Shown here one piece after another: positions 3,661-58,204 of a DNA stretch of 64,000 bases (position 1 is the stretch's first letter; each line of letters opens with the position of its first letter). This DNA is from Burkholderia vietnamiensis LMG 10929 (GTDB lineage: Bacteria; Pseudomonadota; Gammaproteobacteria; Burkholderiales; Burkholderiaceae): assembly GCF_000959445.1 (NCBI RefSeq), contig NZ_CP009632.1, positions 558,001 through 622,000 of the forward strand, in the 5' to 3' direction. The position numbers and the translations under genes were made by a program. Below the pieces are notes generated by a model. It was not told where the DNA came from. It saw nothing but the letters and a program-made list of their open reading frames with translations, and ran no database searches.

Positions 3661-5052
3661 CTACATCGCGGCACCGTAAAGATGATGTGCATCGGTCAGT
3701 GCCTCCGCGACGAGTTGCAGGCCTTCCAGACACTGCGCCCGATCCTGCGGCCCGCCGAGGCAAATGCGGATCGCAGCCGGCGGGTCGCCGTCCGTCGAAA
3801 ATGCCGCGCTTGCCACGGCGGCGACTCTCTGACTCCGCAGATGCTGTGCCAGATCCGGTGCCGTCCATAGGCACTCGCGCGGAATCGGCAACCACAGATG
3901 GAAACCGTCGGGGGGGGCATCGAAAGGCCAGGCGCCGAGAATCCGGCTGGCAATCGCCTGCCGCGCGCGCGCTTCCGCTCGAATCGCGGCCAGCATCTCG
4001 CTGGCCGTGCCGTCGTTGATCCACTGGGTCGCCAGCAGCATTGTGAATGGGCTCGGCATCACGGTCGTGGCACGCAACGCTCCGGCGATACGCTGTGCTT
4101 CGCGCACGGTCGGCGCCAACAGGTAAGCGATTCGCAGCCCGGCGCCGAGATTCTTCGACATGCCGGTCACGTAATAGGTCAGTTCGGGCGCCAGCAACGC
4201 CAGGGGTGGCGGCGCGCTCTGCGGCAGCATCGCGTAGGCGTCGTCCTCGATGATGGGCACGCTGTAGCGCATCGCGATATCGGCCAACGCTTCGCGGCGC
4301 CTGAACGGTATCGTCAGCGTGCTCGGATTCTGCAGTGTGGGGTTGCAGTACAGCGCCGCGGGTTGTCCGCTTCTGCAGAGCGACTCGAAGGCGTGCGGGA
4401 GCGGTCCGTCGTCGTCTCGTGGCAGCGGCTGCAACTGCACGCCCAATTGCGATGCGATTGCCTTGATGCCGGGGTACGCGAGCGAATCGAGGCAGATCGC
4501 GTCGCCGCGGCGCGCAAGCCGGGAGACGAGCGCGACGAGGGCGCTGTGGATTCCGGGGCAAACGAGCACGTTATCGCTACTGCAACCGGGCAGGCGATTG
4601 GCCAGCCACGCGCGGCCGGCGGCCCGATCCGCCGGTGTGCCACCGAAATCCTGATATCGCATCAGTTGGTAAGGATCCGCCACAGCGAACAATGCGGCTG
4701 CCGATCGCTGAAGCCGGTCGACCATCTCGGTCGGTTCAGGGGGCATGTTCATCGTCATCTCGACGCTGCTCCCGCCTGATAGCTGGAACGTCCGTGTCGG
4801 GCCGCGCACGAACGTTCCGCTGCCTGCCCGCGTATCGAGCAAGCCGCGTCGGCGAGCTTCCGCATACGCGCGGGCGACCGTCGTGTAGTTCAGGTTCAGC
4901 GCACCGGCGAGATCGCGCAGCCCGGGCAGGCGGTCGCGCGGCTTCAGCCGGCCCGTCGCGAGATCTTCCTCGATGAGATCGGGGATCAGCAGATAGGCCG
5001 GCTTCCTGCTTTCCAATAGTCGCTTCGACCAATGATGGATCGCGTAATCCAT
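3661..5052 (-). CDS. MocR-type GntR/aminotransferase transcriptional regulator
   Basis: The 463-residue product has an N-terminal GntR winged helix (about residues 10-85) joined to a class I/II aminotransferase-like domain. The pyridoxal phosphate lysine is visible in GMSKNLGAGLR and the IIEDDAYA block supplies the cofactor Asp. MocR proteins bind PLP and regulate adjacent genes, usually those divergent to them. Here the divergent target would be the nitrilase operon starting at 5435. The start at 5052 is chosen because it opens the winged helix; an in-frame ATG at 5076 is possible. Direct repeats at 5143-5174 are candidate operator half-sites. Confidence 0.85.
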   Translation of the reverse strand: MDYAIHHWSKRLLESRKPAYLLIPDLIEEDLATGRLKPRDRLPGLRDLAGALNLNYTTVARAYAEARRRGLLDTRAGSGTFVRGPTRTFQLSGGSSVEMTMNMPPEPTEMVDRLQRSAAALFAVADPYQLMRYQDFGGTPADRAAGRAWLANRLPGCSSDNVLVCPGIHSALVALVSRLARRGDAICLDSLAYPGIKAIASQLGVQLQPLPRDDDGPLPHAFESLCRSGQPAALYCNPTLQNPSTLTIPFRRREALADIAMRYSVPIIEDDAYAMLPQSAPPPLALLAPELTYYVTGMSKNLGAGLRIAYLLAPTVREAQRIAGALRATTVMPSPFTMLLATQWINDGTASEMLAAIRAEARARQAIASRILGAWPFDAPPDGFHLWLPIPRECLWTAPDLAQHLRSQRVAAVASAAFSTDGDPPAAIRICLGGPQDRAQCLEGLQLVAEALTDAHHLYGAAM

Positions 5053-5142
5053 ATCCGTTTCCGTTTGATGATTCATCAAAACGTTAGCATGACGCATTAA
5101 TAGAAAAATATATATATCGCAGTCTCTGTGTCGAATGATTGC

Positions 5143-5174
5143 ATTGATCGCATCATGTATCGGATTGATGCATC
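5143..5174. promoter_or_regulatory. Direct repeats in the mocR/nitrilase-operon intergenic region
   Basis: Two near-identical direct repeats, ATTGATCGCATC at 5143 and ATTGATGCATC at 5164, start 21 bases apart, about two helical turns, in the divergent region between the MocR gene and the nitrilase operon. MocR regulators commonly bind direct repeats in their divergent promoters, so these are plausible operator half-sites. This is an inference from placement and spacing. Confidence 0.45.
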
Positions 5175-5434
5175 GATGCACGCCGGATGCGCATCTATTT
5201 GATCTCGTTGCATCAGTCCGGTGCGCTGTCCACCCCCGACAGGTGGCTTCCGGCTGGATCAGCATTGGTGCGCACAAGGATCGACCTGACTGCAGCAGCA
5301 TTTTTCGATTGAATGATTGGAGAATGATCGCATCGGGGCGAGGCCCGCTTGGCATATGCGTTGCGTTAATGAGTTCACCCGGATTGGAAAACGTCCGGGA
5401 ACGTCATTCAACTCATTTTCAAACGGAGCGTGCC

Positions 5435-5917
5435 ATGCCCGCAGTCAATCAGCCTCTGCACAAGAAGGGAGATTTCCTCGTCGACTACGAGGAAAAGGTA
5501 TTCGAAGACGTCAAGGCGGAGCCGGGCGAAAAGGCGCTCGTGACGTTCCATACGGTTGCGTTCGAGGGATCGATCGGCTTCGTAAACCTCCTGCAGGCGA
5601 CGCGCCTGCAACGCAAGGGGTTCGAGACGTCGGTGCTGCTCTACGGCCCCGGCGTGACGCTCGGCCTGCAACGCGGGTTTCCGACGCTGGGCGACGAGGC
5701 GTTTCCCGGTCACCTGAATTTCAACAAGCAACTCGTCAAGTTCATGGAAGAGGGCGGGAAAGTCTATGCGTGCCGCTTTGCGCTGCAGGCGCTTTATGGG
5801 CACGGCGAAGCGTCGCTGATCGAGGGCATTCGACCGATCAATCCGCTTGACGTGCTGGATATTCAGCTGCTTCACCGCAAGGAGAATGCGCTGGTCATCC
5901 ACACTTGGACCGTTTGA
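5435..5917 (+). CDS. MSMEG_0572/Sll0783 family Nit1C protein
   Basis: This 160-residue protein opens the Nit1C operon. It resembles the MSMEG_0572/Sll0783 family, whose members sit next to the cluster nitrilase and rise on nitrogen starvation in cyanobacteria; the biochemical role is unknown. The sequence has a DsrE/peroxiredoxin-like look: a [20 protein letters not shown] strand-helix block, then [17 protein letters not shown], then a [10 protein letters not shown] block near the C-terminus. A GGAG ribosome binding site precedes the ATG. The nitrilase starts 19 bases after its stop. Confidence 0.85.
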
Positions 5918-5936
5918 TCCAATGACGGGTGCCATC

Positions 5937-6959
5937 ATGTCCGACAAACGCATCGTCCGGGCCGCCGCCGTCCAGATCGCGCCCGATCTGGAACGCGCCG
6001 GCGGCACGCTCGACAAGGTTTGCGCGGCGATCGACGAGGCGGCTGGAAAAGGCGTCCAGCTGATCGTTTTTCCGGAAACGTTCGTGCCGTACTACCCGTA
6101 CTTCTCGTTCGTGCGGACGCCGGTCGCGTCCGGGGCCGATCACATGCGTCTCTACGAGCAGGCCGTGGCGGTGCCCGGCCCCGTGACGCATGCGGTCGCC
6201 GAGCGCGCACGGCTGCACGGGATGGTGGTCGTGCTCGGCGTGAACGAGCGCGACCACGGCAGCCTGTACAACACGCAGCTGATCTTCGACGTCGACGGAC
6301 GCCTCGCGGTGAAGCGCCGCAAGATCACGCCGACGTTTCACGAGCGGATGATCTGGGGGCAGGGCGACGCGGCCGGGCTCAAGGTTGCGCAGACAGGGAT
6401 CGGACGGGTCGGTGCGCTCGCGTGCTGGGAGCACTACAACCCGCTCGCCCGTTATGCGCTGATGACGCAGCACGAGGAAATTCATTGCAGCCAGTTCCCC
6501 GGTTCGCTGGTCGGTCCGATCTTCGCGGAGCAGATCGAAGTCACGATTCGTCACCACGCGCTGGAAGCGGGCTGCTTCGTCGTCAATGCGACCGGCTGGC
6601 TGACGGATGCCCAGATCGAGTCGATCACCGGCGATCCGAATCTGCAGAAGGCCCTGCGCGGCGGCTGCAATACCGCGATCGTGTCCCCGGAGGGCCAGCA
6701 TCTGGCCGAGCCGTTGCGCTCGGGCGAAGGGATGGTAATCGCCGACCTGGACATGTCGCTGATCACCAAGCGCAAGCGAATGATGGATTCGGTCGGCCAC
6801 TATGCGCGCCCGGAGCTGCTGAGCCTTGCCATCAACGATCGGCCGGCGACCACGGTGACCCCGATGGGGACCAGCGGGTCGGCCGCACGCGAATTCGAGG
6901 GAAACTGCCATGAGCGCGAACGCGAAACCGTCGGTGCAGAGCCGGCAATTGATGACTGA
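5937..6959 (+). CDS. Nit1C-type nitrilase
   Basis: A carbon-nitrogen hydrolase of 340 residues with the full triad: E47 in [14 protein letters not shown]129 in [12 protein letters not shown] and C163 in LACWEHYNP. It should hydrolyse a nitrile to the carboxylic acid and ammonia in the cytoplasm; the natural substrate of this branch is unknown, though Nit1C has been linked to bacterial growth on cyanide. It is closest in kind to the Sll0784/MSMEG_0566 branch, as its neighbours confirm. The 3-prime end overlaps the radical SAM gene by 50 bases, more than the 4-base overlaps elsewhere in the operon. Confidence 0.92.
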
Positions 6960-8022
6960 ACTGCAGTCGGTCGGGCTGCGTCTCGCGGATCCGCGCGCTG
7001 GCGCCGCGAGCCGGCGCGGCGGCGCCGGGCCGTCCGATCACAAGGCCGTGACGGTCGACGGCGTGACCATCATGGTGCCGGTGCACACGAGCACCGCATG
7101 GGAATCGCCGTTCGTCGCGGCCGAGCCCGACGCGGCGGGCGTCAGCCTGCTGTCGCGCGGCGCCATCCCGATCGCGAGCATCAGCTTTCCGTCGAACCCG
7201 CGCTTCTACGCATTGCAGACGCTGGAGGGCGTGCCGTATTCGCACATCGCGACGCTGCATGGCGCCGACGTGCTGGCGACCACGGTGTTGCAGACCTGCA
7301 TGCGCTACGAGAGCCGGCGCAAGACCTGCCAGTTCTGTTCGATCGGCCAGTCGCTTGCCGCCGGCCGGACGATTGCGCGCAAGACGCCCGAACAACTCGC
7401 GGAAGTGGCGCGCGCGGCGGTGCTGCTCGACGGCGTCAAGCACATGGTCTTGACGACCGGCACGCCACCGACGCCGGATCGCGGCGCCCGGGTGCTGTGC
7501 GAGAGCGCGTTCGCGATCAAGGCGGCTGTCGATCTCCCGATCCAGGCACAGTGCGAACCGCCCGACGACGACGGCTGGTTCGACCGGATGAAGGCAAGCG
7601 GGATCGATACGCTGGGCATGCATCTGGAAGCCGTGACGCCGGCCGTGCGCGAACGGATCATGCCGGGCAAGGCGAGCGTGCCGTTGTCACGGTATATGTC
7701 GGCATTCCGCGCGGCCGTGGCCGTGTTCGGCCGCGGGCAGGTCAGCACCTACATCCTCGCCGGGCTGGGGGACAGCGAGGCGGCGATTCTGGACATGTCG
7801 CGCGAGCTGATCGACTTGGGCGTGTATCCGTTCGTCGTGCCATTCGTGCCGATCAGCGGCACGCCGCTGGAGAGCCATCCCGCGCCGTCGCCGGACTTTA
7901 TGCGCGCGGTGCTCGCGCCGCTCGGAGCGATGTTGCGCGACGCCGGCATGCGTTCCGCCGACATCAAGGCCGGCTGCGGAAAGTGCGGCGCCTGCTCGTC
8001 GCTTTCGACCTACGAGGTGTGA
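6910..8022 (+). CDS. Radical SAM protein, MSMEG_0568 family
   Basis: The 370-residue product is a radical SAM-like enzyme of the Nit1C cluster. The cluster cysteines appear to be C130, C140 and C143, a C-X9-C-X2-C spacing instead of the usual CX3CX2C. A second group, CGKCGAC, lies at the extreme C-terminus and could bind an auxiliary cluster. Mid-protein blocks ([37 protein letters not shown]) fit a biotin-synthase-like barrel. The reaction is unknown. It overlaps the nitrilase and precedes the GNAT gene by 2 bases. Confidence 0.88.
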
Positions 8023-8024
8023 CC

Positions 8025-8585
8025 ATGTACTGCGTGGAGATGGGGCTGGCCGACAGCCGCGACACGTACCGGCCTGCCGAATACTGGATCAAATGGGCGC
8101 AGCTTCCGTGGGAAATCGACGAAGCGTACAAGCTGCGCCGGGCCGTATTCTGCATCGAGCAGGGGATCTTCGTCGGCGACGATCGCGACGATATCGATCG
8201 TCACGCGCAATTGCTGGTCGCGGTCAGTTGCTGCGCCGGCCTGCCGGAGCAGGTGGTCGGCACGGTCCGGATTCATGAAACCGTGCCCGGCACGTGGATG
8301 GGGTCGCGGCTCGCGGTGCATCCGGCGTTTCGCCGGCAGGGCAGGATCGGCTCGATGCTGATCGCGCTGGCCGTCAGCAGCGCGCATGCCGAAGGTTGCG
8401 GCACCTTCGTCGCGCACGTGCAAGCGCAGAACGTGCCGCTGTTTCGTCGGCTTCACTGGGATGCGCTCGGCGAGGAAACATTGTTTGGCCGCGCCCATCA
8501 ACTGATGCAGGCCCAGCTTGCGCACTATCCGCCGTGCGGCACGCCGTTCGAGGGTTTCGTCCTGCGCGCGGAGGGACGGCCATGA
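8025..8585 (+). CDS. GNAT acyltransferase, MSMEG_0567 N-terminal family
   Basis: The 186-residue protein has a GNAT fold: EIDEAYKLRRAVFCIEQGIF near the start, then a beta-strand region around VVGTVRIHE and the acyl-CoA loop RLAVHPAFRRQGRIGSMLI. In some genomes this domain is fused to the AIR-synthase-like domain encoded next; here they are separate genes sharing an ATGA overlap, supporting joint action. The acceptor is unknown. Translation starts at ATG 8025, right after the radical SAM stop. Confidence 0.88.
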   Translation: MYCVEMGLADSRDTYRPAEYWIKWAQLPWEIDEAYKLRRAVFCIEQGIFVGDDRDDIDRHAQLLVAVSCCAGLPEQVVGTVRIHETVPGTWMGSRLAVHPAFRRQGRIGSMLIALAVSSAHAEGCGTFVAHVQAQNVPLFRRLHWDALGEETLFGRAHQLMQAQLAHYPPCGTPFEGFVLRAEGRP

Positions 8586-9568
8586 GTGTCGCGGATCGCA
8601 TCGCGGCATTGCGTGCCAGCCGCGGCTTCCAGCATAAGCACGACATCTCCGGCGTGGTCGCGTCGCTCGCGGCGGCATTGCCGAACGGTGCACGGGATCT
8701 CGCCCAGGCGGTGGCGCTCGGCGACGACTGCGCGGCGATTCCCGACGGGGACGGCTACCTGCTGTTCGCGATCGAGGGCATGGTCGGCGATTTCGTCGAG
8801 TCGATGCCGTGGTTCGCCGGGTACAGCGGCGTGATGGCGAACGTCAGCGACGTCTACGCGATGGGTGGGCGGCCGATCGCCGTCGTCGACGCATTGTGGA
8901 GCGACGGGATCGACGCCGCGCGGCCGGTGCTCGCCGGGATGGCCGCGGCTGCGTCGGCGTATGGCGTGCCGATCGTCGGCGGCCACAGCAACACGCGCAG
9001 CGCGCAGCGGCAACTGGCCGTGTCGATCCTGGGCCGGGCGCGCGCGCTGCTGTCGAGCTTCAATGCGCGGCCGGGCGATCGCCTGATGATGGCGGTCGAC
9101 CTGCGCGGCGTATTCGAGGAGCCGTATCCGTTCTGGAATGCGTCGGTCTGCGCGCCGCCGGACCGGCTGCGCGCCGATCTCGAGATTCTGCCGATGTTGG
9201 CGGAAGACGGGCTGTGCGATGCCGCGAAGGATATCTCGATGGCGGGCGTGCTCGGTACGGCGCTGATGCTCGTCGAATGCTCGCGTGTCGGCGCGCGGAT
9301 CGCGCTCGACGCGATCCCGCGGCCTCCCGGCGTCGACTTCGATCGCTGGCTGACGGCCTTTCCAAGCTACGGATTCCTGATGGCGGTGCGGCCGGCGCAT
9401 ACCGACGCGATCGCGGAACGCTTCGCGGCGCGCGGGCTCGCGTGCGCGGTGATCGGCGATATCGACGCCACGCGCGAGGTCGTCGTCGAGGAGGCGGGCG
9501 AAACGGCGGTGCTGTGGGATTTCCGGATCGAGCCGTTCATCACCGGTGTCGAAGGAGGTACGCGATGA
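8582..9568 (+). CDS. AIR synthase-related protein (Sll0787 family)
   Basis: This 328-residue protein belongs to the PurM/ThiL/SelD ATP-binding superfamily. The N-terminal half has ALGDDCAAIPDGDGYLLF and a middle block MANVSDVYAMGGRPIAVVD typical of AIR synthase-like folds, followed by VGGHSNTR. It probably uses ATP to activate or phosphorylate a small substrate; which one is unknown. It overlaps the GNAT gene by 4 bases and the glycosyltransferase gene by 4 bases, so the three are translationally coupled. Confidence 0.88.
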   Translation: MSVADRIAALRASRGFQHKHDISGVVASLAAALPNGARDLAQAVALGDDCAAIPDGDGYLLFAIEGMVGDFVESMPWFAGYSGVMANVSDVYAMGGRPIAVVDALWSDGIDAARPVLAGMAAAASAYGVPIVGGHSNTRSAQRQLAVSILGRARALLSSFNARPGDRLMMAVDLRGVFEEPYPFWNASVCAPPDRLRADLEILPMLAEDGLCDAAKDISMAGVLGTALMLVECSRVGARIALDAIPRPPGVDFDRWLTAFPSYGFLMAVRPAHTDAIAERFAARGLACAVIGDIDATREVVVEEAGETAVLWDFRIEPFITGVEGGTR

Positions 9569-10749
9569 GCGGCGATACGTTGCGCATCGCGCTGCTGACC
9601 CACTCGGTCAATCCGCGCGGCGGTGTCGTGCACGCACTCGAACTCGCGAGGGCGCTGCACGAAGCGGGACGCGATGTCACCGTGTTCGCGCCGGCCGCGC
9701 CGGGCGACGAGATGTTCCGCGATGTCCCGTGCCGCGTCGTGCTGGCGCGCGTCGATGGCCGTCCGCGCGGCGTCGCGGAAATGGTGCGCGCGCGAATCGC
9801 CGCGATCAAGTACGCCCTGCTGGAGCACGACGCAAGCGGGTTCGACGTGCTGCATGCACAGGACAGCATCACGGGCAATGCGCTGGCCGAGCTGAGGCAG
9901 TCGGGCGAAATAGATGGATTCGTACGGACCGTGCACCACCTCGACGTATTCGACGACCCGCAGCTCGAACGCTGGCAGGAACGCGCGTGGCGCGAGGCGG
10001 ACCAGGTGCTGTGCGTGAGCGCCGCGTGGGCGGCCACGATGCGCAAGACGTTCGGGGTCGACGCGAGCGTGGTGCCCAATGGGGTGGACGTCGGCCGGTT
10101 CGCTCGCGCGAGCGAGGCGGACATGCAGGCGGTGCGGCGGCGTTTCGGCCTGCACGGCGCGCCGGTCGTCCTGGCGATCGGCGGGATCGAGCAGCGGAAA
10201 AACTCGATCGCGCTGCTCGAGGCATTTTCCCGGTTGCGCGGCACGACGCCCGATGTACGGCTCGTGATCGGGGGTGGCGCGAGCCTGCTCGATCACGATG
10301 CCTACACGCGCCGCTTCGTCGCGCGCGCCGCCGCGCTCGGGCTGGGGATCGGCGTCGACGAAACCGTCGTGCCGACGGGGCCGCTCGACGATGCGGCGCT
10401 GGTCGCGCTGATGCACTGCGCCGACGTGGTGTCGATGGTGTCGATCCGCGAGGGATTCGGTCTGGTCGTGCTTGAGGCGCTCGCGTGCGGCAAGCCGGTC
10501 GTCGTATCCGAAATCGAACCGTTTACCGAGTATCTGGACGAGCACGCGTGCGTGTGGGCCGATCCCGCCGACGTGGATTCGATCGCCGATGCGCTGCGCG
10601 ACGCGCTCTCGGGGCGGCGTGGTCCCGATTTCACGCATGCAGTTCCCGCACTGTTGAACCGCTTCACATGGGACGCGAGTGCGCGCAGGCATCTGGACAT
10701 TTACCAGGACAGGCTGGCGCAGCGTGCGCAAGCATCGTCCGCCGAGTAA
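9565..10749 (+). CDS. Family 4-type glycosyltransferase, MSMEG_0565 family
   Basis: The 394-residue GT-B glycosyltransferase starts with THSVNPRGGVVHALELARAL and ends with the donor-binding segment VSIREGFGLVVLEALACGKP around residues 290-312, including the E-x7-E pattern of GT4 enzymes. It would transfer a sugar from a nucleotide sugar to an unknown acceptor, so the cluster may make a glycosylated small molecule. A GAAGGAGG ribosome binding site precedes the ATG. It overlaps the AIR-synthase-like gene. Confidence 0.88.
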   Translation: MSGDTLRIALLTHSVNPRGGVVHALELARALHEAGRDVTVFAPAAPGDEMFRDVPCRVVLARVDGRPRGVAEMVRARIAAIKYALLEHDASGFDVLHAQDSITGNALAELRQSGEIDGFVRTVHHLDVFDDPQLERWQERAWREADQVLCVSAAWAATMRKTFGVDASVVPNGVDVGRFARASEADMQAVRRRFGLHGAPVVLAIGGIEQRKNSIALLEAFSRLRGTTPDVRLVIGGGASLLDHDAYTRRFVARAAALGLGIGVDETVVPTGPLDDAALVALMHCADVVSMVSIREGFGLVVLEALACGKPVVVSEIEPFTEYLDEHACVWADPADVDSIADALRDALSGRRGPDFTHAVPALLNRFTWDASARRHLDIYQDRLAQRAQASSAE

Positions 10750-10758
10750 GGGGGCATC

Positions 10759-11043
10759 ATGCCGGTCATGCATTTTCGGGTTCGTTGGCCCGACCAGTCG
10801 GAAACCAATTGCTATTCGCCTTCGACCGTGGTGTCGGAGTTTTTCACGCCCGACACGCAATACGCGCTCGACGACTTCGTCGAACGCGCACGGCGCGCAC
10901 TGGGTATCGCATCCGATCGCGTCCGCGAGAAATACGGGTTCGCGTGCTCGGCCGCGATGGACGAGCTGGCACGGATCGAAGCGCACGCGGAACGATTCGC
11001 GCCGCAGCGCGATGCGACCGTGACCGTCATCGAGCTCGTTTAG
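10759..11043 (+). CDS. MSMEG_0570 family small Nit1C protein
   Basis: A 94-residue protein conserved in Nit1C clusters. It opens with MHFRVRWPDQSETNCYSPS and has a helical middle with REKYGFACSAAMDEL. No enzyme motif is visible, and it may be a carrier or accessory protein. It lies 9 bases after the glycosyltransferase and about 56 bases before the flavoprotein, within the same transcription unit. Confidence 0.85.
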   Translation: MPVMHFRVRWPDQSETNCYSPSTVVSEFFTPDTQYALDDFVERARRALGIASDRVREKYGFACSAAMDELARIEAHAERFAPQRDATVTVIELV

Positions 11044-11099
11044 GGCGTCCGGCACGCAGAAATCCACCGCCATCTTCAACACACATTCAGGACTGCATC

Positions 11100-12401
11100 A
11101 TGTCAAGCGAACCCGTTTTTTCATCCAGCCTCCCGGATATCGATGCCCATCTCGGCGTAGCCGTCATCGGCGGCGGGCAGGCCGGGCTGTCGATCAGCTA
11201 CTACCTGAAGCAGGCAGGTATCGATCATCTCGTATTCGAAAAGGAAACCGTGACGCACACGTGGCGCAAGCAGCGCTGGGACGCGTTCTGTCTGGTGACG
11301 CCGAACTGGCAGTGTGCGCTCCCGGGCTATCCGTATCGCGGGGCCGACCCGCACGGCTTCATGACGAAGGACGAGATCGTCGAGTATCTCGACGGCTTCA
11401 CCCGCAGCGTCGATGCGCCGGTACTGGAACATACCGCGGTCGAGCATGTGACGCGCGACGCGGACGGACGCTATCGCATCGCGACGTCGCGCGGCACGTA
11501 CACGGCGGATCGGGTCGTCGTTGCGTCGGGCGGCTACCATCGGCCGATCGTGCCGCGCATGGCCGAGCGGCTTCCTGCATCGATCGTGCAGCTCCAGTCG
11601 TCGGAATACCGCAATCCGGCCGCGTTGCCGGACGGGCCGGTGCTCGTGGTCGGATCGGGGCAATCGGGTGCGCAGATCGCGGAAGACCTCCACCTTGCCG
11701 GGCGTAAGGTGTTACTCGCGGTGGGCGATGCGCCGCGCTGTGCCCGTTTCTATCGGGGCAGGGACGTCGTCGACTGGCTGGCCGACATGCAGTACTACGA
11801 CATGCCGGTCGATGCACATCCGCTGCGCGAAGGCGTGCGCGACAACACCAACCACTATGTGACCGGGCGCGACGGCGGGCGCGACATCGATCTGCGCCGC
11901 TTTGCCGCCGAAGGGATGGAACTGTACGGCCGGCTGGAGGACTTTTCAGGCGGGCAGTTGCGCTTCTCCGCAGACCTGTCGGCGCAGCTCGACAGCGCCG
12001 ACGATACGTACAACCGGATCAATGCCGGCATCGATGCGCATATCGAGAAGAATGGGATCGCGGCGCCGCCCGCGACGCGCTACGAACCCGTGTGGCGTCC
12101 AGACCATGAGCGGACGACACTCGATCTAGCGGCCAGCGGCATCGCATCGGTCATTTGGTGCATCGGCTTCACCCCCGACTTCAACTGGCTGGATGCGCCG
12201 GTCTTCAACGGTCGCGGCTATCCCGCGCACCGGCGTGGCGTGACGCCGGTTCCGGGGCTCTACTTCGTCGGGCTGCCCTGGCTATACACGTGGGGGTCGG
12301 GGCGATTCTCCGGCGTGGCGCGAGATGCGGCCCATATCGTCGACCGGATCCAGGCCGAGATGACAGCCGCGCGGCGTTCGGCCGAAAGCGAGGTCGCCTG
12401 A
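11100..12401 (+). CDS. Flavin-dependent oxidoreductase, MSMEG_0569 family
   Basis: The 433-residue protein is a flavin-containing monooxygenase-like enzyme. An FAD dinucleotide fold is seen as [19 protein letters not shown] near residue 20 and a second NAD(P)H fold as VVGSGQSGAQIAEDL near residue 183, with FVGLPWLYTWGSGRFSG at the C-terminus. It would oxidise a cluster intermediate using NAD(P)H and oxygen; the substrate is unknown. This is normally the last conserved Nit1C component. Here transcription continues into two further genes, the next starting 5 bases downstream. Confidence 0.88.
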   Translation: MSSEPVFSSSLPDIDAHLGVAVIGGGQAGLSISYYLKQAGIDHLVFEKETVTHTWRKQRWDAFCLVTPNWQCALPGYPYRGADPHGFMTKDEIVEYLDGFTRSVDAPVLEHTAVEHVTRDADGRYRIATSRGTYTADRVVVASGGYHRPIVPRMAERLPASIVQLQSSEYRNPAALPDGPVLVVGSGQSGAQIAEDLHLAGRKVLLAVGDAPRCARFYRGRDVVDWLADMQYYDMPVDAHPLREGVRDNTNHYVTGRDGGRDIDLRRFAAEGMELYGRLEDFSGGQLRFSADLSAQLDSADDTYNRINAGIDAHIEKNGIAAPPATRYEPVWRPDHERTTLDLAASGIASVIWCIGFTPDFNWLDAPVFNGRGYPAHRRGVTPVPGLYFVGLPWLYTWGSGRFSGVARDAAHIVDRIQAEMTAARRSAESEVA

Positions 12402-12406
12402 CGCCG

Positions 12407-13240
12407 ATGCATACCGCCATCCATCGCTATCGGGCCGGCATGCCGCAGCTCGCGCACACGGGGCTCGCGGAAAACTGGCTGCTCAAGGAGTGCGGACAGC
12501 GCCACTGGGACGCGCTGGCCGCGTATAGCGGTCGCGACGCGCCCGAGTTCTTCGACGACGACGGGCGGCGCGCCTATGCGTCGTTCGTTGCGGTGCACGT
12601 CGACATGAGCCGCCGTCACGCGATTCGCGAGAACGACACGTTCGCGCTGCATGTCGCGCTTCACCGGGTCGGCCCGATTCGTCACTTTAGCGAACAGCGG
12701 ATCCGGCATGGCGACCACGAAGCAGGCGTCGTGCGGATGATGTCGACGTTCGTGACGCGCGAACACGCCGGCAGCAACCGCTCGGTGATGAAGGCGCGAA
12801 TGACCGGCGTCGACGGCCGCACCGGGCCGGTCCCGGCCGATGCGCTGGCGATGGCGGAACGGGGGAAGAAGCTGCGGACGCGGGATGCGTCGATCGTGCC
12901 GGCGCTCGCCGGCCTCGCGGAGGACGACGGCGCCAGCGTGTCGTTCCTGCCGTGCCCGAACATGGATTTCAACGGCGCGGACCTGCTGTACTTCGCCAGC
13001 TTTCAGGCCTTCGTCGACCGCGCGGAATGGCAGCATTATCGCTTCGCGCACGCACCGGTGCTGGCAGCACGTCAACTGTACTTTCATGGAAATCTCGACA
13101 TCGGCGATGCGTTGACCGTGCGTTTCGTGCGTGCCGGACCCGATACGGGCGGCCTGCTGCACTGGAGCGAAATCCTGCGCGACAGCGACGGGACGAAGAT
13201 TGCCGATGTCATCACGCAAAAGCACTGGAGCCGGGCATGA
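12407..13240 (+). CDS. LnmK-like acyltransferase/decarboxylase (Pnap_2097 family)
   Basis: The 277-residue product resembles the LnmK/Pnap_2097 family of double hot-dog proteins. LnmK itself takes methylmalonyl-CoA, decarboxylates it and loads propionyl onto a carrier protein. Visible blocks include SFVAVHVDMSRRHAIRENDT, SVSFLPCPNMDFNGADLLYF, ASFQAFVDRAEW and LYFHGNLDIGDALTVRF. It starts 5 bases after the flavoprotein and overlaps the mutase by 4 bases. Adjacency to a methylmalonyl-CoA mutase supports a methylmalonyl or propionyl substrate. No acyl carrier protein gene is seen in the operon. Confidence 0.75.
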   Translation: MHTAIHRYRAGMPQLAHTGLAENWLLKECGQRHWDALAAYSGRDAPEFFDDDGRRAYASFVAVHVDMSRRHAIRENDTFALHVALHRVGPIRHFSEQRIRHGDHEAGVVRMMSTFVTREHAGSNRSVMKARMTGVDGRTGPVPADALAMAERGKKLRTRDASIVPALAGLAEDDGASVSFLPCPNMDFNGADLLYFASFQAFVDRAEWQHYRFAHAPVLAARQLYFHGNLDIGDALTVRFVRAGPDTGGLLHWSEILRDSDGTKIADVITQKHWSRA

Positions 13241-15378
13241 ACGAGGCGGCAATCATGGCGCCGGACACCGAGGTGGAGCGCGTCGGGCCGAACGATCGAC
13301 GCGCGCGCACGGTGCCGCTGCGCAAACTCTACACGCAGCGCGATCTCGAAGCCGTCGCGCATCTCGGCAGCATGCCCGGCGCGTGGCCCTATGTGCGCGG
13401 GCCGTACGCGTCGATGTATACCGATCGCCCATGGACGATTCGCCAATACACGGGGCATGCAGACGCGGCGGATTCCAATCTCGCGTTTCGCACGGCGCTC
13501 GAGCAGGGCGCGCAGGGGCTGTCCGTGGCATTCGACCTGGCGACACAGCGCGGCTACGACTCGGATTGCGTCGAGGCGTGGGCCGATGTCGGCGTGGCTG
13601 GTGTCGCGATCGATACGGCTGACGACATGGTGCGGCTGTTCGACGGCATTGCACTCGACGCCACGACAGTGTCGATGACGATGAACGGCGCGGTCCTGCC
13701 GATCATGGCGGCGTTCGTCGTGGTCGCCGAGGAGCAGGGCGTGCCGCCCGAGCGGATCGGCGGGACGATTCAGAACGACATTCTGAAGGAGTACATGGTC
13801 CGCAATACGTGGATTTTCGGGCCGGCGCCGTCGATGCGGATCGTCGCCGACGTCGCGTTGTGGCTGGCCGAGCATGCGCCGCGCTTCAATGCGCTGTCGG
13901 TGTCGGGATATCACTTCCAGGAAGCCGGCGCCGACGCCGTGCTCGAACTCGCGCTGACGCTGTCGAATGCGCGGGCGTACGTCGACACGCTGGCCGCACG
14001 CGGGATGCCTGCGGATGAGGCCTGCTCTCGGTTGAGCTTTTTCTTCGGCGTGGGCAGCGATTTCTATACGGAGATCGCCAAGCTGCGCGCGGCGCGTCTG
14101 CTGTGGGCGGAGATCGCGCACGCGTGCGGCGCGCGCTCGCCCCGGGCGTGTGCGCTGCGCATGCATTGCCAGACATCTGGATGGTCGTTGACCGCACAGG
14201 AGGCGGAAAACAACATCGTTCGCGTGACGGCGCAGGCAATGGCCGCGGCGTTTGGCGGCACGCAGTCGCTGCACACGAATGCGTACGACGAAGCGCTTGC
14301 GCTGCCGTCCGCGGCGGCAGCGCGCCTCGCGCGCAACACGCAGCTGATTCTGCAGCATGAAACGGGACTGTGCGACACGGTCGATCCGTGGGCCGGTTCG
14401 TACATGATGGAATCGCTGACGGACGACATCGCGACCCGCGTGCGCGCCGAGCTGGCCGCCATCGACGCGCAGGGCGGCGTGATCGCCGCGATCGAGTCCG
14501 GTTGGGTCAAGCGGCGCTTGCTGCATGCCGCGGCCAAGACGCAGGCGCAGGTCGATTCCGGGCGCCGGACCGTGGTCGGCGTGAACCGTTTCGTCGCGAG
14601 CGATCCGACGGATGAATTCACGGTGCGCGAGATGGACGGTCGTCATGTTCGTGCGGGGCAGGCGCGGCGAATCGCAGCCGTCAAGGCCGCGCGCGATCCG
14701 GCGCGGGTGGAGGCGGCGTTGTGGCGGCTGGCCAACGCGGCGCGCGACGGCGGCGGAAACCTGCTCGCATTGGCGATCGACTGCATGCGGGCACGTGCGA
14801 CCGTCGGGGAGTGTACGCGCGCACTGGAATCGGTATGGCCGCGACATACCGCGGCGGTGGAAGCGAATGGCGCGGGTGCTTACGGCGACCATCGGCGCGG
14901 CGACGCCGCATGGCGCGCGGCCAAGGGCTGCGTCGGCCGGCTGGCACAACGTGCGGGACGCAGGCCGCGCATCGTGATCGCCAAGCTCGGCCAGGACGGA
15001 CACGACCGCGGTGCGGCGGTGGTCGCAGCCGCGCTCGAGGATGCCGGATTCGACGTCCTACGTCTGCCGCTATTTCAGCAACCGATCTGCGTGGCGGCAG
15101 CCGTGCAGGCGTATGGCGCCGATATCGTGGGCGTTTCGTCGTTGTCGGGCGGCCACCGCGAGCTCGTCGAAGGGCTGCTCGACGAACTGGCATCGCTTCG
15201 CGCTGGGATTCCGGTGGTGTTGGGCGGCATCTTTCCCGCCGCGGATGCGCGCCATCTGAAGGCGAAGGGCGTCGCGGCGAGTTTTGGGCCGGGTACGCCG
15301 CTCGATGCGATCGTCGAGGCGCTGTGTGCATGTATCGAGCGAGCGCGGTGTGTACATCCGGCGGACCACGTGGGCTGA
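13237..15378 (+). CDS. Methylmalonyl-CoA mutase, single chain with B12 domain
   Basis: The 713-residue enzyme contains the TIM-barrel catalytic domain (RQYTGHADAADSN, FDLATQRGYDSD, VSMTMNGAVLPIMAAF, GTIQNDILKEYMVRNTW) and a C-terminal cobalamin domain with the QDGHDRG motif near residue 587, whose His is the lower cobalt ligand. It interconverts succinyl-CoA and methylmalonyl-CoA; related mutases act on other acyl-CoAs, so specificity is inferred. It lies at the end of the nitrilase operon, coupled to the LnmK-like gene. A gene for its MeaB-type chaperone is not seen nearby. Confidence 0.85.
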   Translation: MNEAAIMAPDTEVERVGPNDRRARTVPLRKLYTQRDLEAVAHLGSMPGAWPYVRGPYASMYTDRPWTIRQYTGHADAADSNLAFRTALEQGAQGLSVAFDLATQRGYDSDCVEAWADVGVAGVAIDTADDMVRLFDGIALDATTVSMTMNGAVLPIMAAFVVVAEEQGVPPERIGGTIQNDILKEYMVRNTWIFGPAPSMRIVADVALWLAEHAPRFNALSVSGYHFQEAGADAVLELALTLSNARAYVDTLAARGMPADEACSRLSFFFGVGSDFYTEIAKLRAARLLWAEIAHACGARSPRACALRMHCQTSGWSLTAQEAENNIVRVTAQAMAAAFGGTQSLHTNAYDEALALPSAAAARLARNTQLILQHETGLCDTVDPWAGSYMMESLTDDIATRVRAELAAIDAQGGVIAAIESGWVKRRLLHAAAKTQAQVDSGRRTVVGVNRFVASDPTDEFTVREMDGRHVRAGQARRIAAVKAARDPARVEAALWRLANAARDGGGNLLALAIDCMRARATVGECTRALESVWPRHTAAVEANGAGAYGDHRRGDAAWRAAKGCVGRLAQRAGRRPRIVIAKLGQDGHDRGAAVVAAALEDAGFDVLRLPLFQQPICVAAAVQAYGADIVGVSSLSGGHRELVEGLLDELASLRAGIPVVLGGIFPAADARHLKAKGVAASFGPGTPLDAIVEALCACIERARCVHPADHVG

Positions 15379-16047: not shown

Positions 16048-16434
16048 TCACGCGTGCACGCGCACCGCCGGATCGCCGAGGATGGTTGCAAGGGTCCGGA
16101 TTGCCTCATCGATCTTCGTGTTCCATGGATGTCCGAATTTGACGTGCACGCAATTTTGAAAGGCATGCTTTGTCGAAAAGATGGGCTCCGGCGCGATACT
16201 GATGCGGTGGCCGATCGCCAGCCGATGCAGCGCCATCGTGTCGAAGCCCGAGCGCTCCTCGGCGCGGACGGGGCCCCATTCTTCCAACAGTTGGTGCGCG
16301 CGGAACACGGTCGACTGGCTGACGCGCCGTTGCGCGATGGTCCGCCGGACCGACGGCAACCGCGCGCCGACCGGAATATAGCCTGACCGGATGCGGCTGG
16401 CGATGGAATTGGCGAGCGCCTCGTAGTGATTCAT
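16048..16434 (-). pseudogene. MocR/GntR regulator reduced by internal deletion
   Basis: The 128-residue frame begins with a GntR winged helix (YEALANSIASRIRSGYIPVG, then RLPSVR and SQSTVFRAHQLLEEWG) and jumps straight to the C-terminal end of an aminotransferase-like domain (RISIAPEPIFSTKHAFQNC, then FGHPW). Most of the PLP-binding domain is missing, including the lysine block. The join is in frame, so a short protein could be made, but it cannot work as a normal MocR regulator. It lies just downstream of cydB on the same strand. Confidence 0.65.
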
Positions 16435-16519
16435 GGCGTGCTTGTTTCGGCGGATGTTTCCTGCCGCGGCGCATTCGGCGGGTGCCGTTTGACGGTCCGG
16501 TGAACTGCGCGACGCATCG

Positions 16520-17521
16520 TCAGTGATAGTGCAGTTCGGCATGGTCGGTCTTGCCGCGGAACACGCGGTAGCCGAGTGCTGTGTAGGCGAGAATTACCGG
16601 GATGATGACGACCGCGCCGACCAGCGTGAACACCTGGCTCGTATGGGGTGACGCGGCTTGCCAGATCGTCACACCCGGCAGGATCGCGAACGGATAGACG
16701 GTGGCGAGCAGGCCCGCGTAGCCGGCTAGGACGAAGCCCAGCGTAAGCACGAACGGCAGCGTCGGATGGCGGCTGCGCGTGGCCCTGAGCATGCCGGCCG
16801 CACACGCAAGCACGGTGGCCGGTGCGAGCAGTGCCCAGTGCAGCATCGGCGAATCGAACCAGCGGGAGTCGAACATCGGCGTGAGCCTCGGCGTCCACAG
16901 CGTAACTGCGATGATCGTCACCAGTTGCAGCGCGGTGAGCGGCATAGCGAGCCGGTAGAGGCGACGTTGCAGGTCGCCGTCCGTTTTCGCGATCAGCCAC
17001 GTGCAGCCCAGCAGGGCATAGGTGACGACAAGCGCGAGGCCGGTAAACAAGCTGAAGGGTGTCAACCAGTCGAACGCGCCGCCCGCGAAGTGGTCACCGA
17101 CGACGGGAATGCCCGACAGCCATCCGCCGATGGCGACGCCCTGGAAGAATGTCGCGCCTGCCGAGCCGCCGATGAACGCGAGATCCCACCACGCTCGCGT
17201 GCGTCGCGCCTTGCCACGCAACTCGAACGCGACGCCGCGAAATATCAGGCAGATCGTCATCAACAGCAGCGGCAGGTACAGCGCTGACAGCACGACGGAA
17301 TAGACCGTCGGGAACACCGCGTAGAGCGACGCGGCGCCCAGCACCATCCAGGTTTCGTTGCCGTCCCAGACAGGGGCGACGGAACTCATCATGCAGCTGC
17401 GCGCATCGTCGTGATCGAAAAACGGGAAAAGGATGCCGATGCCGAGATCGAATCCGTCAAGCACGACGTACATGCCCAGACCAAACGCGACGATGGCGGC
17501 CCAAACGAGAGTGATGTTCAT
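16520..17521 (-). CDS. cydB: Cytochrome bd-type quinol oxidase subunit II
   Basis: The 333-residue integral membrane protein has eight or nine predicted membrane segments and the N-terminal VLDGFDLGIGILFPF motif of subunit II, then VWDGNETWMVLGAASLYAVF. With subunit I it forms a bd-type quinol oxidase of the inner membrane that reduces oxygen to water. Its gene follows cydA by 18 bases. As the neighbouring subunit I looks like the short-Q-loop CioA type, this could equally be called cioB, the cyanide-insensitive form. Confidence 0.9.
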   Translation of the reverse strand: MNITLVWAAIVAFGLGMYVVLDGFDLGIGILFPFFDHDDARSCMMSSVAPVWDGNETWMVLGAASLYAVFPTVYSVVLSALYLPLLLMTICLIFRGVAFELRGKARRTRAWWDLAFIGGSAGATFFQGVAIGGWLSGIPVVGDHFAGGAFDWLTPFSLFTGLALVVTYALLGCTWLIAKTDGDLQRRLYRLAMPLTALQLVTIIAVTLWTPRLTPMFDSRWFDSPMLHWALLAPATVLACAAGMLRATRSRHPTLPFVLTLGFVLAGYAGLLATVYPFAILPGVTIWQAASPHTSQVFTLVGAVVIIPVILAYTALGYRVFRGKTDHAELHYH

Positions 17522-17539: not shown

Positions 17540-18955
17540 TCAGGAGATGCGACGGCGGGCGAGCGTGTTGGCGACGACACGGTCGGCCGGCTCCGGCGCG
17601 TTGCCGATGCGAACGGGAACCGGCGTGCCGCTGGGGCGATCCTCGGACAGCACGGCGGGGCCGTGCTTTGCGAGGCGCAGCAAGTAGTAGATGCCAGTGC
17701 CGAAGACGAGGGCATACACCACGACGAACGCGAGCAGCGTGATGCCCACCTGTTGAGCGGGGACGGGCGAGAGTGCATCGGTGGTGTGCATGACGCCGTA
17801 GATGACCCACGGCTGGCGCCCGACTTCGGTCGTGATCCAGCCCGCGAGCAGGCTGATGAAGCCAGTCGGCCCCATCGCCAGTGCGAAGCGGTGATACGAC
17901 GCACTGTCATACAACCGACCGCGGCGCCGCAGCACGAAGCCGACGATCGCGAGCAACGCCATCAGGACGCCGAGGCCCGCCATGATCCGGAACGTCCAGA
18001 AGACGATCGTCGAGTTCGGCCGGTCGGCCTTCGGAAACGCCTTGAGCCCCTTGATCTCGCCGTCCCATGTGTGAGTCAGGATCAGACTGCCCATATGAGG
18101 TACCGACACGCGGTACCGTGTCGTTTCGGCATCCATGTCCGGAATGCCGAACAGATTCAGCGCCGTCCCGTTGTGTTCTGTTTCCCAGACGCCCTCGATC
18201 GCGGCGAGCTTCGCGGGCTGGTATTCGCGTGTGTTCAAGCCGTGCGCATCACCGGCGAGGATCTGCAGCGGCGCGATGACGACCAGCAGTCCGATGGCCA
18301 TCGAGAACATCTTGCGCACCGCCGGATCGCGACGGCCGCGCAGCAGATGCCAGGCGCCGGTCGCGGCGACGACGAGCGCGGCCACGATAAACGCGGCGAG
18401 CGCCATGTGCACGAAGCGGTACGGGAACGACGGGTTGAAGACGATCGAGAACCAGTCGACCGGTACGACCCGGCCGTCGACGATCGCGATCCCCCGTGGC
18501 GTCTGCATCCAGCTGTTCGACGCGAGAATCCAGAACATCGAAATATTCGTGCCGATCGCGACCAGCGCGGTCGCGATGAAATGAGGCACGCGGCCGACGC
18601 GGTTCCAGCCGAACAGCATGATGCCGAGGAAGCCCGCCTCGAGGAAGAACGCCGTCATCACCTCGTAGGCGAGCAGCGGACCGGTGACGCTGCCGGCGAA
18701 GCTCGAGAAGCCGCTCCAGTTCGTGCCGAACTCGTAACTCATGACGATGCCGGAGACGACACCCATGCCGAACGCGACGGCGAAGATCTTCGACCAGAAC
18801 CGGCATAGTTCGCGATAGACCTGACGGCCCGTCTTGAGCCACAGGCCTTCGAGCACGGCGATGAAGGTCGAGAGGCCGATGCTGAGCGCGGGAAAGATGA
18901 TGTGAAACGAAACTGTGAACGCGAACTGGATTCGCGCGAGGTGCAATGCATCCAT
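17540..18955 (-). CDS. cydA: Cytochrome bd-type quinol oxidase subunit I (CioA-like)
   Basis: The 471-residue subunit carries the haem ligands: H18 in SFHIIFPALS, a second His in the middle and a Met in the LMALLAIVG region, plus the quinol-site GRQPWVIYG motif. Length and the short loop before GRQPW are nearer to Pseudomonas CioA than to long-Q-loop E. coli CydA. CioAB oxidases tolerate cyanide, which fits the adjoining nitrilase and cyanate genes. The start at 18955 is chosen because MDALHLARIQFAFTVSFH is the standard N-terminus; the frame continues upstream without homology. Confidence 0.9.
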   Translation of the reverse strand: MDALHLARIQFAFTVSFHIIFPALSIGLSTFIAVLEGLWLKTGRQVYRELCRFWSKIFAVAFGMGVVSGIVMSYEFGTNWSGFSSFAGSVTGPLLAYEVMTAFFLEAGFLGIMLFGWNRVGRVPHFIATALVAIGTNISMFWILASNSWMQTPRGIAIVDGRVVPVDWFSIVFNPSFPYRFVHMALAAFIVAALVVAATGAWHLLRGRRDPAVRKMFSMAIGLLVVIAPLQILAGDAHGLNTREYQPAKLAAIEGVWETEHNGTALNLFGIPDMDAETTRYRVSVPHMGSLILTHTWDGEIKGLKAFPKADRPNSTIVFWTFRIMAGLGVLMALLAIVGFVLRRRGRLYDSASYHRFALAMGPTGFISLLAGWITTEVGRQPWVIYGVMHTTDALSPVPAQQVGITLLAFVVVYALVFGTGIYYLLRLAKHGPAVLSEDRPSGTPVPVRIGNAPEPADRVVANTLARRRIS

Positions 18956-19419
18956 ATAGACCACCGGTAGTGTCGGGTTGAATCGGTGGCCCATTTTCGT
19001 AACAAAGCGCAGTGCTACACAGCAGCACATCGATCGCGAAAACGGGTAGCAGCACCAGAAGAGGCGTGGCATTTCGACTCATGCGCGACGCAATATCGCA
19101 CCGGCTTTTCATCGGCAACCGCACCGGATTGCGTCGATCAGAGGGACAGCAGGCCCTCGGTCGTGCCGACGTACGCCGCGAGGCCGGCCTTCTGCAACGC
19201 GCGCGGCGACACGCTCAATCGCGCCGACCGGAGAGGCGCGAACGCCGGTGTCCGCGCGTGTTTAGCGCAACGCCGCTGCCGAGGTCGGGTAGACGGTCGT
19301 GTCCGTCGCGAACAGCGTGCTGTCTGCGCCGCGTTCGAAGGCGATGGGTCGCGGTCGTAGACCGCCACGAGGTGCGAACCGACGGCCTTTTCGATGGTTT
19401 TGAAAGGAAGGGGAGTCGG
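18956..19419. other. Upstream region of cydAB with degraded sequence
   Basis: The stretch contains the cydA leader and presumably its promoter, which I could not place with confidence. On the minus strand a short frame ends in VSPRALQKAGLAAYVGTTEG, which looks like the tail of a lost protein. No intact gene is supported. Confidence 0.35.
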
Positions 19420-20313: not shown

Positions 20314-20721
20314 TCAGCGACCTACGTCCTTCTCACGATAGGGTGCAGCACGGGTGACATCGCCCTGATAGAACGCCGCAAATCGTTCCAACTGCCGCCG
20401 GGCCGCTTCGCTGTCGGAGCCCTCCTTCAATACCGCACTCGAAAAACCCATGCGCTCCATCTGCTGCAATTGGTCGACGAGAACCTCGCCAGTGGCCCGC
20501 AAGTCGCCCTTGAAACCGAGCCGTCGGCGCAGGTAATAAGCCTGGCTATACGCTCGCCCGTCAGTAAACGACGGGAAATGCAAATCGACGCGCGTCGCGA
20601 TTGCGATCTCGAGCGCGTACACGCGCGGGTCGGCATCGTTCGGCAACGTGAGTACGGACGGGGCGGCGTCGGCGGCATGTTCGCCCGCGTCGAGAAGACG
20701 AATGCGTGCGACGGCGTTCAT
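20314..20721 (-). CDS. DUF934 family protein
   Basis: The 135-residue protein belongs to DUF934, found next to CysI-like reductases in proteobacterial sulfate assimilation operons. Typical blocks are DPRVYALEIAIATRVDLHFP, FTDGRAYSQAYYLRRRLGF, then LRATGEVLVDQLQQMERMGF. It may assist sulfite reduction as an electron-transfer or assembly partner, but this is not established. Its start overlaps the end of the reductase gene by 4 bases. The frame extends upstream, but the ATG at 20721 fits the family. Confidence 0.85.
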   Translation of the reverse strand: MNAVARIRLLDAGEHAADAAPSVLTLPNDADPRVYALEIAIATRVDLHFPSFTDGRAYSQAYYLRRRLGFKGDLRATGEVLVDQLQQMERMGFSSAVLKEGSDSEAARRQLERFAAFYQGDVTRAAPYREKDVGR

Positions 20722-22508: not shown

Positions 22509-22597
22509 GGTGGTTGCAGAAATGCCGGGATCCGGTGGACATAGAGTGTTCACGTTATCGTGCCCCGGAGTGCAGTTAAAGCAGCAGACGACACTCA

Positions 22598-22775
22598 AAC
22601 GAGCGTAGCAGTGACGGTGCAGGTTGCGTATCGAGTAAGCTTCTTCGCCACTGCGCGACCATATTGGCGTTCAAGCCGTGCGCACGCGCTACCTCGGCAA
22701 TCGAGCGATTCGGATCGTTCGCTTCGGCAGCAACCGCTTCCCGAAACTCCTTCGTGTAGTTCTTCGATCCCGGTT
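22598..22775 (-). pseudogene. IS66-type orfA (TnpA) fragment
   Basis: The minus strand reads KNYTKEFREAVAAEANDPNR, then SIAEVARAHGLNANMVAQWR, which is the helix-turn-helix small protein of IS66-family elements. No ATG precedes it, no tnpB or large transposase follows, and it is fused to the truncated end of the neighbouring membrane-protein gene. It is therefore an insertion-sequence scar. Confidence 0.7.
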
Positions 22776-23188: not shown

Positions 23189-23480
23189 TGCGATTAGGCG
23201 GGGGAGGGTAAGGCGCGGGGCTGTGCATGGGCGGCCTCATTAGCAGGGTTTCAGCCCGCTCCCGTCGCCAAACGGGGTGAGCGGGCGCAGAGCGGGGTTG
23301 GCGAACCGGCGGCTAATGAACACCGGCAGACCCGAAGGTCTCCCCACCCAGGCCCGCCCATAGAAACCGACGTGCAAAGGCACACCGCACAAAAAAGCCG
23401 CAGAACGCGGCTGTGCGCATTAACCGTTCGGGTCGCCAAACCCGGCACCTGTTGTTTCAGGTGCGCGGCCAGTGTAGCTC
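23189..23480 (-). other. Phage/Ash-like structured leader region
   Basis: This GC-rich stretch contains several inverted repeats and, on the minus strand, a 65-codon frame (23251-23448) with the Cys- and Gly-rich wording FCAVCLCTSVSMGGPGWGDL seen in Ash/Icd-like leader peptides of prophages and islands. Such regions precede small membrane or phage genes and may act mainly as structured RNA. The identification is by resemblance only. Confidence 0.4.
23391..23411 (-). terminator. Rho-independent terminator, minus strand
   Basis: Read on the minus strand, GCCGC and GCGGC arms around a 5-base loop (23397-23411) are followed by six Ts (23396-23391). This is a compact intrinsic terminator within the Ash-like leader, and could act as an attenuator for the membrane-protein gene downstream. 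Confidence 0.6.
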
Positions 23481-44711: not shown

Positions 44712-44767
44712 GACCTTGCAGATCGGCTCGACCCCGAAGGTGTCGCGATGCTGATCAATGAAGGCCT

Positions 44768-58186: not shown

Positions 58187-58204
58187 GCGTTTCCATCCCA
58201 TCTT

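Follow-up and report, generated by a model that had tools for sequence, protein, structure and literature searches.

Nit1C is a nitrilase gene cluster for which, according to PMC11049912, there was no experimental evidence of function as a whole at its first description; the same paper states that Nit1C has been experimentally linked to cyanide assimilation in two Pseudomonas strains and that nitC is required for growth on cyanide as a nitrogen source, likewise in two Pseudomonas strains. The genome of Burkholderia vietnamiensis LMG 10929 (6.93 Mb in four contigs) has a Nit1C operon in the 64,000 nucleotides analysed here (bases 558001-622000 of contig 4, NZ_CP009632.1; hereafter the window), and this operon is extended by two genes, encoding an LnmK-like acyltransferase/decarboxylase and a methylmalonyl-coenzyme A (CoA) mutase (MCM). 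Its nitrilase, radical SAM and GNAT genes are of the same kinds as in the nitBCDEFGH cluster of Pseudomonas oleovorans CECT 5344 and P. fluorescens NCIMB 11764, and the AIR-synthase-like, small protein and oxidoreductase gene kinds are also common to both, but the cluster of the window adds a glycosyltransferase, the LnmK-like enzyme and the mutase. The second described system that is close is LnmK of leinamycin biosynthesis (PDB 4hzn-4hzp, 6x7l-6x7p), a bifunctional acyltransferase/decarboxylase and, by its PDB name, a methylmalonyl-CoA:acyl carrier protein (ACP) enzyme; unlike LnmK, the protein of the window is encoded in a nitrilase cluster without a polyketide synthase.

The gene order as such is already public, because RefSeq names the genes side by side (for example at locus L107). 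In the open PMC literature, the family name Pnap_2097 is not mentioned, and nit1C and methylmalonyl-CoA occur together only in one paper, on a thermostable nitrilase. The locus is a variant of the known Nit1C cluster with a testable biochemical prediction.

Gene identities were judged against the curated cut-offs of NCBIfam, and all ten co-directional genes from 5435 to 15378 exceed their own cut-off:

5435-5917, plus strand: MSMEG_0572/Sll0783 family protein, NitB position (TIGR04044, 290.9 bits, cut-off 109.85)
5937-6959, plus strand: Nit6803-family nitrilase, NitC position (TIGR04048, 579.7 bits, cut-off 502.6; PF00795)
6910-8022, plus strand: MSMEG_0568 family radical SAM protein, NitD (TIGR04043, 602.3 bits, cut-off 303.7)
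8025-8585, plus strand: GNAT N-acetyltransferase, NitE (TIGR04045, 232.1 bits, cut-off 68.45)
8582-9568, plus strand: AIR-synthase-like protein, NitF (TIGR04049, 509.3 bits, cut-off 321.3; PF00586, PF02769)
9565-10749, plus strand: MSMEG_0565 family glycosyltransferase (TIGR04047, 561.3 bits, cut-off 259.85)
10759-11043, plus strand: MSMEG_0570 family small protein, NitG (TIGR04042, 132.6 bits, cut-off 79.85)
11100-12401, plus strand: MSMEG_0569 family flavin-dependent oxidoreductase, NitH (TIGR04046, 690.1 bits, cut-off 498.35)
12407-13240, plus strand: LnmK-like (Pnap_2097 family) acyltransferase/decarboxylase (TIGR04099, 362.9 bits, cut-off 125; LnmK model TIGR04098, 304.1 bits, cut-off 100)
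13237-15378, plus strand: MCM, single chain with C-terminal B12 domain (NF006944, 985.4 bits, cut-off 876; PF01642, PF02310)

A first, sequence-only reading of the window had described eight genes of the Nit1C set in order and two more coupled to them. The NCBIfam matches bear out strand, place and order of the eight: seven Nit1C families stand in order above their cut-offs, together with the glycosyltransferase, which is counted as an optional member because it is present in 39 of 76 Nit1C loci (tblastn, half coverage; at a 40th locus, L181, the gene is in two pieces). The spacings given for the last two genes hold as well (a 5-base gap, 12402-12406, before the LnmK-like gene and a 4-base overlap, 13237-13240, between it and the MCM), and so do the identities given to them, LnmK-like (TIGR04098/TIGR04099) and full-length MCM (NF006944), both above cut-off. 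Four loci have the identical gap and overlap: L053, L107, L189 and, in a near-identical genome, L052; the other 30 loci of the spacing table have different spacings or a start codon that is not resolved. The ten genes are probably transcribed together. The first half of a second flavoprotein, encoded far downstream (57080-58201, minus strand), matches the MSMEG_0569 profile with 120.8 bits, below cut-off.

The extension by two genes recurs in related genomes. Within the genus Burkholderia, the Nit1C flavoprotein is found above cut-off in 9 of 61 genomes: five of the nine have a full LnmK-like gene followed by an MCM (one contig ends inside the MCM), three (G041, G005 and G060) have an N-terminal remnant of the LnmK-like gene and no MCM, and one (G050) has neither. 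Absence of the pair from the Nit1C clusters of near relatives had been named beforehand as a result that would refute the sequence-only reading, and on this point the outcome is mixed: the pair is kept in five genomes and missing or reduced to a remnant in four. With near relatives that have Nit1C and lack the pair, the LnmK-like gene and the MCM are an accessory part of Nit1C and not a core one.

On the family level, the linkage is tight. The Nit1C radical SAM protein is above cut-off in 64 of 299 Burkholderiaceae genomes and TIGR04099 in 32, and all 32 are among the 64 (Fisher p 2e-25, a value that is overstated because the genomes are related). An MCM above cut-off adjoins the LnmK-like gene in 31 of these 32 genomes. 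In this part the sequence-only reading is supported: the two added genes accompany Nit1C and each other. Conversely, none of 31 Nit1C genomes with no LnmK-like gene, or only a remnant of one, has an MCM above cut-off (G741, whose LnmK-like gene is partial and close to the end of a contig and whose MCM is on a different contig, was excluded from this count), and, counted by locus, the MCM occurs only with the LnmK-like gene (36/36). A separate search for mutases covered 36 Burkholderia genomes, namely all nine with Nit1C and 27 of the 52 others. It found an MCM in six: the five linked pairs (one cut by the contig end and below cut-off) and G024, in which the Nit1C flavoprotein is not above cut-off. 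Neither a protein search nor the MCM model found a second mutase in the genome of the window itself. Thus, the operon brings its own mutase where the tested host has no other MCM above cut-off. This is what one would expect of an LnmK-like enzyme that depends on methylmalonyl-CoA. One locus, L193 (G793), has a rearranged Nit1C, in which the LnmK-like gene and the MCM are flanked by a second GNAT-like gene and the MSMEG_0572 gene; the flavoprotein was not in the stretch fetched.

The mutase resembles MCMs of the ScpA/MutB type: it is a full-length single chain with a B12 domain and has intact active-site residues. Eighteen of the 37 linked mutases in hand were aligned and compared with two canonical MCMs, and all 18 keep the catalytic His/Tyr pair, the DxHxxG motif for B12 and the residues that contact CoA and the carboxylate of the substrate, with positions equated to the numbering of the solved enzyme. 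The MCM of the window is about 50% identical to the two canonical MCMs, and complete linked MCMs score 929-1015 bits with the MCM model, compared with 1163-1302 bits for the best unlinked MCM of other genomes (1068 bits in G024). By these comparisons, the mutases that accompany LnmK-like genes form a divergent set; identity and scores this low also leave room for a substrate other than methylmalonyl-CoA. The isobutyryl-CoA mutase/GTPase fusion IcmF was considered and rejected as an identity for the mutase (314.9 bits, cut-off 1500; no GTPase domain was reported). Two long mutases, P0232 and P0240, were examined as possible LnmK-mutase fusions that would prove the coupling; neither is matched by the LnmK model, and each has a second mutase-type stretch instead (small-subunit model, two stretches).

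The LnmK-like protein has a predicted double hot-dog fold close to that of LnmK, with 21% identity in the structural alignment. Its Tyr57 is invariant in 30/30 and in 48/48 aligned sequences and aligns with chain residue 62 of 6x7l; the equivalent position is Phe in 4hzp. Tyr62 is the catalytic residue of LnmK, and we propose from this alignment that Tyr57 is catalytic in the LnmK-like protein.

Both genes are under purifying selection: in comparisons of the window with five loci, the LnmK-like gene has a dN/dS of 0.16-0.30 and the MCM one of 0.20-0.32, with synonymous change near saturation in one of the five (L108). Across the window and the 34 loci in which the genes were compared, the correlation of pairwise distances is highest for flavoprotein and LnmK-like gene (0.955), LnmK-like gene and MCM (0.947) and flavoprotein and MCM (0.940), compared with 0.79-0.94 for other pairs, all of these values being inflated by shared descent.

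LnmK-like genes with Nit1C are also found in Proteobacteria other than Burkholderiaceae, here mostly with the mutase elsewhere in the genome. In a sample of the phylum, the radical SAM model identified Nit1C in 16 of 398 genomes, four of which have an LnmK-like gene; two genomes (G181 and G328) have TIGR04099 and no match to the Nit1C radical SAM model. In the order of G167, TIGR04099 is above cut-off in 21 of 297 genomes and Nit1C genes lie in the same stretch for 18 of the 21 LnmK-like genes (none were seen for G585, G609 and G628). No MCM is present in the stretch at any of these 18 loci (the contigs of G539 and G701 end just past the gene), and all 21 genomes have an unlinked MCM above cut-off.

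The named records agree with this division (13 of the 60 records with a match were read). Nit1C, Pnap_2097 and scpA occur together on plasmid records of Burkholderia anthina, Paraburkholderia FT54 and Caballeronia zhejiangensis (by annotation) and of Cupriavidus oxalaticus (by tblastn). Methylocystis, Agrobacterium vitis, Tabrizicola and Agrobacterium T29 (by annotation) and M. extorquens AM1 (by tblastn) have Nit1C and Pnap_2097 with no MCM in the stretch. Thalassospira, Azospirillum and Roseobacter have an LnmK-like gene in settings other than Nit1C, and in Streptomyces globosus the LnmK-like match lies inside a ketosynthase-type protein. Some loci differ in their composition: L167 (G691) has a reduced Nit1C of regulator, MSMEG_0572 protein, nitrilase, radical SAM protein, LnmK-like gene and flavoprotein, in which tblastn did not find the GNAT, AIR-like, glycosyltransferase and MSMEG_0570 genes, and M. 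extorquens (L113) and G211 (L061) have a reading frame that looks outer-membrane-like by eye between the flavoprotein and the LnmK-like gene.

P. fluorescens NCIMB 11764, a model strain of cyanotrophy, encodes an LnmK-like protein too (P0101, B723_21895; 43% identity to the protein of the window, identified by protein match). According to PMC11049912, nitA of this strain lies three genes downstream of nitH, which leaves room for genes of the LnmK-like and mutase types. Sequences similar to the linked, divergent mutases are present in several Pseudomonas.

Our preferred reading, to which we give an even chance of being right, is that LnmK-like enzyme and mutase form an accessory module for acyl supply and acyl transfer that hands a propionyl group to a Nit1C intermediate. 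The module itself is drawn from gene content, linkage, the finding that genomes which have lost the LnmK-like gene have no such mutase either, the conserved residues and the predicted fold. The mutase would convert succinyl-CoA to (2R)-methylmalonyl-CoA; the LnmK-like enzyme would take the (2R) isomer directly, so that no epimerase is needed, and load the acyl group with the help of Tyr57. It would then decarboxylate the loaded group and pass the propionyl to an amine, a hydroxyl or a carrier-bound group of the Nit1C intermediate. The Burkholderiaceae concerned would carry the mutase in the operon because those tested are mostly without a housekeeping mutase, while the other Proteobacteria examined could draw on a mutase already present. 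A wider version can be put forward tentatively, with less confidence than the module: besides being a cyanide-nitrogen pathway, Nit1C may make a dedicated small molecule, to which, in Burkholderiaceae and other Proteobacteria, an LnmK-type enzyme would add a propionyl group without a carrier, the enzyme of the Burkholderiaceae being fed (2R)-methylmalonyl-CoA by the operon-borne mutase. The sequence-only reading, which had suggested that the operon builds an acylated small molecule from a nitrile- or cyanide-derived core, is as a whole partly supported.

Several observations weigh against a propionyl-transferring module. Half of the Nit1C genomes of the family (32 of 64) and 12 of the 16 Nit1C loci of the phylum sample are without a full LnmK-like gene or without any, respectively, and, as Nit1C persists without it, the pair must be dispensable for the core function. 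One genome (G769) has Nit1C and an LnmK-like gene and no MCM above cut-off, and two linked MCMs (G937 and G945) have an in-frame TGA. Of 26 Nit1C genomes without a full LnmK-like gene, 14 have weaker, sub-cut-off mutase-like matches, several as long as IcmF, and two genomes with the LnmK-like gene (G933 and G838) have a second, incomplete MCM-like match; the statement that there is no other mutase is therefore valid only for the MCM model at its cut-off. Outside the class of the window, all six Nit1C genomes without an LnmK-like gene have an MCM as well, which makes the supply argument weak there. Finally, LnmK acts on a carrier protein, but none is annotated close to the module in the seven named Nit1C loci that were read in annotated form, whose gene tables are incomplete, and no carrier search of the window was made; the LnmK-like genes of Thalassospira and Azospirillum, which are outside a Nit1C setting, do have a carrier protein nearby. 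From the lack of an annotated carrier in the named loci, a small-molecule acceptor or a housekeeping carrier can be argued.

The same lack of a dedicated carrier in the named loci would suit a general propionyl supply, in which mutase and decarboxylase produce a propionyl thioester (of CoA or a housekeeping ACP) for use outside Nit1C. Such gene-pair logic has a precedent in the Sbm/YgfG (sleeping beauty) pathway of E. coli, in which a mutase and a methylmalonyl decarboxylase convert succinyl-CoA to a propionyl unit. YgfG is a decarboxylase of the crotonase type, whereas the pair considered here has a hot-dog decarboxylase like LnmK and is tied to a nitrilase operon. A general source would not require Nit1C, yet within the 299 Burkholderiaceae genomes the LnmK-like gene is found only with it (32/32), and the tight gene spacing in the window and four further loci also argues for a function within the operon. 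We consider a general supply unlikely, though it fares best among the alternatives.

It is also rather improbable that the module handles a different acyl group, be it methylmalonyl without decarboxylation, malonyl or another acyl-CoA, with the mutase acting on a related acyl-CoA. This would be in line with the divergence of the linked mutases (about 50% identity to canonical MCMs, lower bit scores), with TIGR04099 and the LnmK model TIGR04098 being separate models, and with the modest 21% identity to LnmK. The residues that bind the substrate carboxylate are however invariant in the 18 aligned mutases, as is the LnmK tyrosine in those LnmK-like proteins that were aligned.

A catabolic role, in which the nitrilase releases a C4 acid or acyl-CoA that the pair clears away, with the mutase running towards succinyl-CoA, would fit the tie of Nit1C to cyanide assimilation in two Pseudomonas strains (PMC11049912) and the cytochrome bd genes that adjoin the operon. 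We see little chance of it: a mutase running towards succinyl-CoA needs no LnmK-like partner, yet the MCM occurs only with that partner. That the genes are chance neighbours or a hitch-hiking remnant with no functional link is very improbable, even with the pair missing in some relatives and LnmK remnants decaying, because the linkage is repeated in several genera of Burkholderiaceae, purifying selection acts on both genes, and they diverge in step with the flavoprotein (correlations 0.94-0.96, to which shared ancestry contributes).

Upstream of the operon, and missing from the sequence-only reading, is a divergent regulator gene that belongs to the locus:

3661-5052, minus strand: MocR-type regulator with GntR winged helix and aminotransferase-like domain (PF00392, PF00155)
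5053-5434, no strand: putative control region between regulator and operon, containing TGATTGCAT/TGATCGCAT-type repeats

A homologue of the regulator (over half covered, at least 38% identity) is present in the stretch of 72 of the 76 Nit1C loci. Its nearest named model is EhuR (NF052286); with 382.9 bits and a cut-off of 480 this identity was rejected, and the protein is a MocR-type protein of another subtype. The TGATTGCAT/TGATCGCAT-type repeats at 5133-5144, 5145-5154 and 5322-5333 are short, so that chance may account for them; the repeat block is well kept in the window and at seven closely related Burkholderia loci, and less well at the more distant L054, L055 and L108. We propose the repeats as MocR-binding sites and the region as the putative promoter of the operon; conserved intergenic repeats beside a MocR gene suggest that the operon is regulated by MocR. 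A promoter scan found no sigma-70-like site on the plus strand and three on the minus strand. A terminator scan returned two terminator-like sites on the plus strand, both within genes, compared with 6.8 in shuffles. Pseudomonas nit1C differs in having a sigma-54-type regulator, NitA (PMC11049912).

On the other side, the operon is followed by genes on the minus strand:

16521-17521, minus strand: cytochrome bd subunit II, convergent with the Nit1C operon, downstream
17543-19072, minus strand: cytochrome bd subunit I, convergent with the Nit1C operon, downstream
20314-20850, minus strand: small reading frame beside the reductase-type gene
20718-22598, minus strand: sulfite/nitrite reductase-type gene (NIR_SIR domains), close to those for cytochrome bd

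The cytochrome bd oxidase is probably of the cyanide-insensitive kind. Together with the reductase-type gene it recalls the cio cluster of P. pseudoalcaligenes CECT 5344, which, according to PMC11049912, combines a cyanide-insensitive oxidase, CysI and mocR, and these neighbours lend loose support to a cyanide setting for the locus. A search of 87 loci found cydAB again in L052 (the near-identical genome) and in Methylocystis (L111), and L113 has a cydB stretch at its edge. Between the operon and the bd genes, a short GntR-type frame (16048-16542, minus strand) with an end like a MocR C-terminus looks by eye like a degenerate regulator.

Further along the window, matches to C4 antisense RNA and isrK RNA (23273-23464, minus strand) suggest prophage-type DNA, phage-integrase genes lie at 28702-29865 and 54983-56455, and there is a match to the ALIL pseudoknot (44697-44813, minus strand), a frameshift element of insertion sequences.

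Nit1C is spread over distant taxa, and a mutase and an acyltransferase that are inherited together with it are a concrete clue to an acyl group in its pathway. The module names a candidate substrate, (2R)-methylmalonyl-CoA, and points to a possible metabolite that depends on the cluster. If the tentative small-molecule reading is true, the LnmK family would have a role outside polyketide assembly, and an acylated metabolite would be predicted in cyanotrophs such as P. fluorescens NCIMB 11764; the LnmK-like gene of this genetically studied cyanotroph makes a direct test possible.

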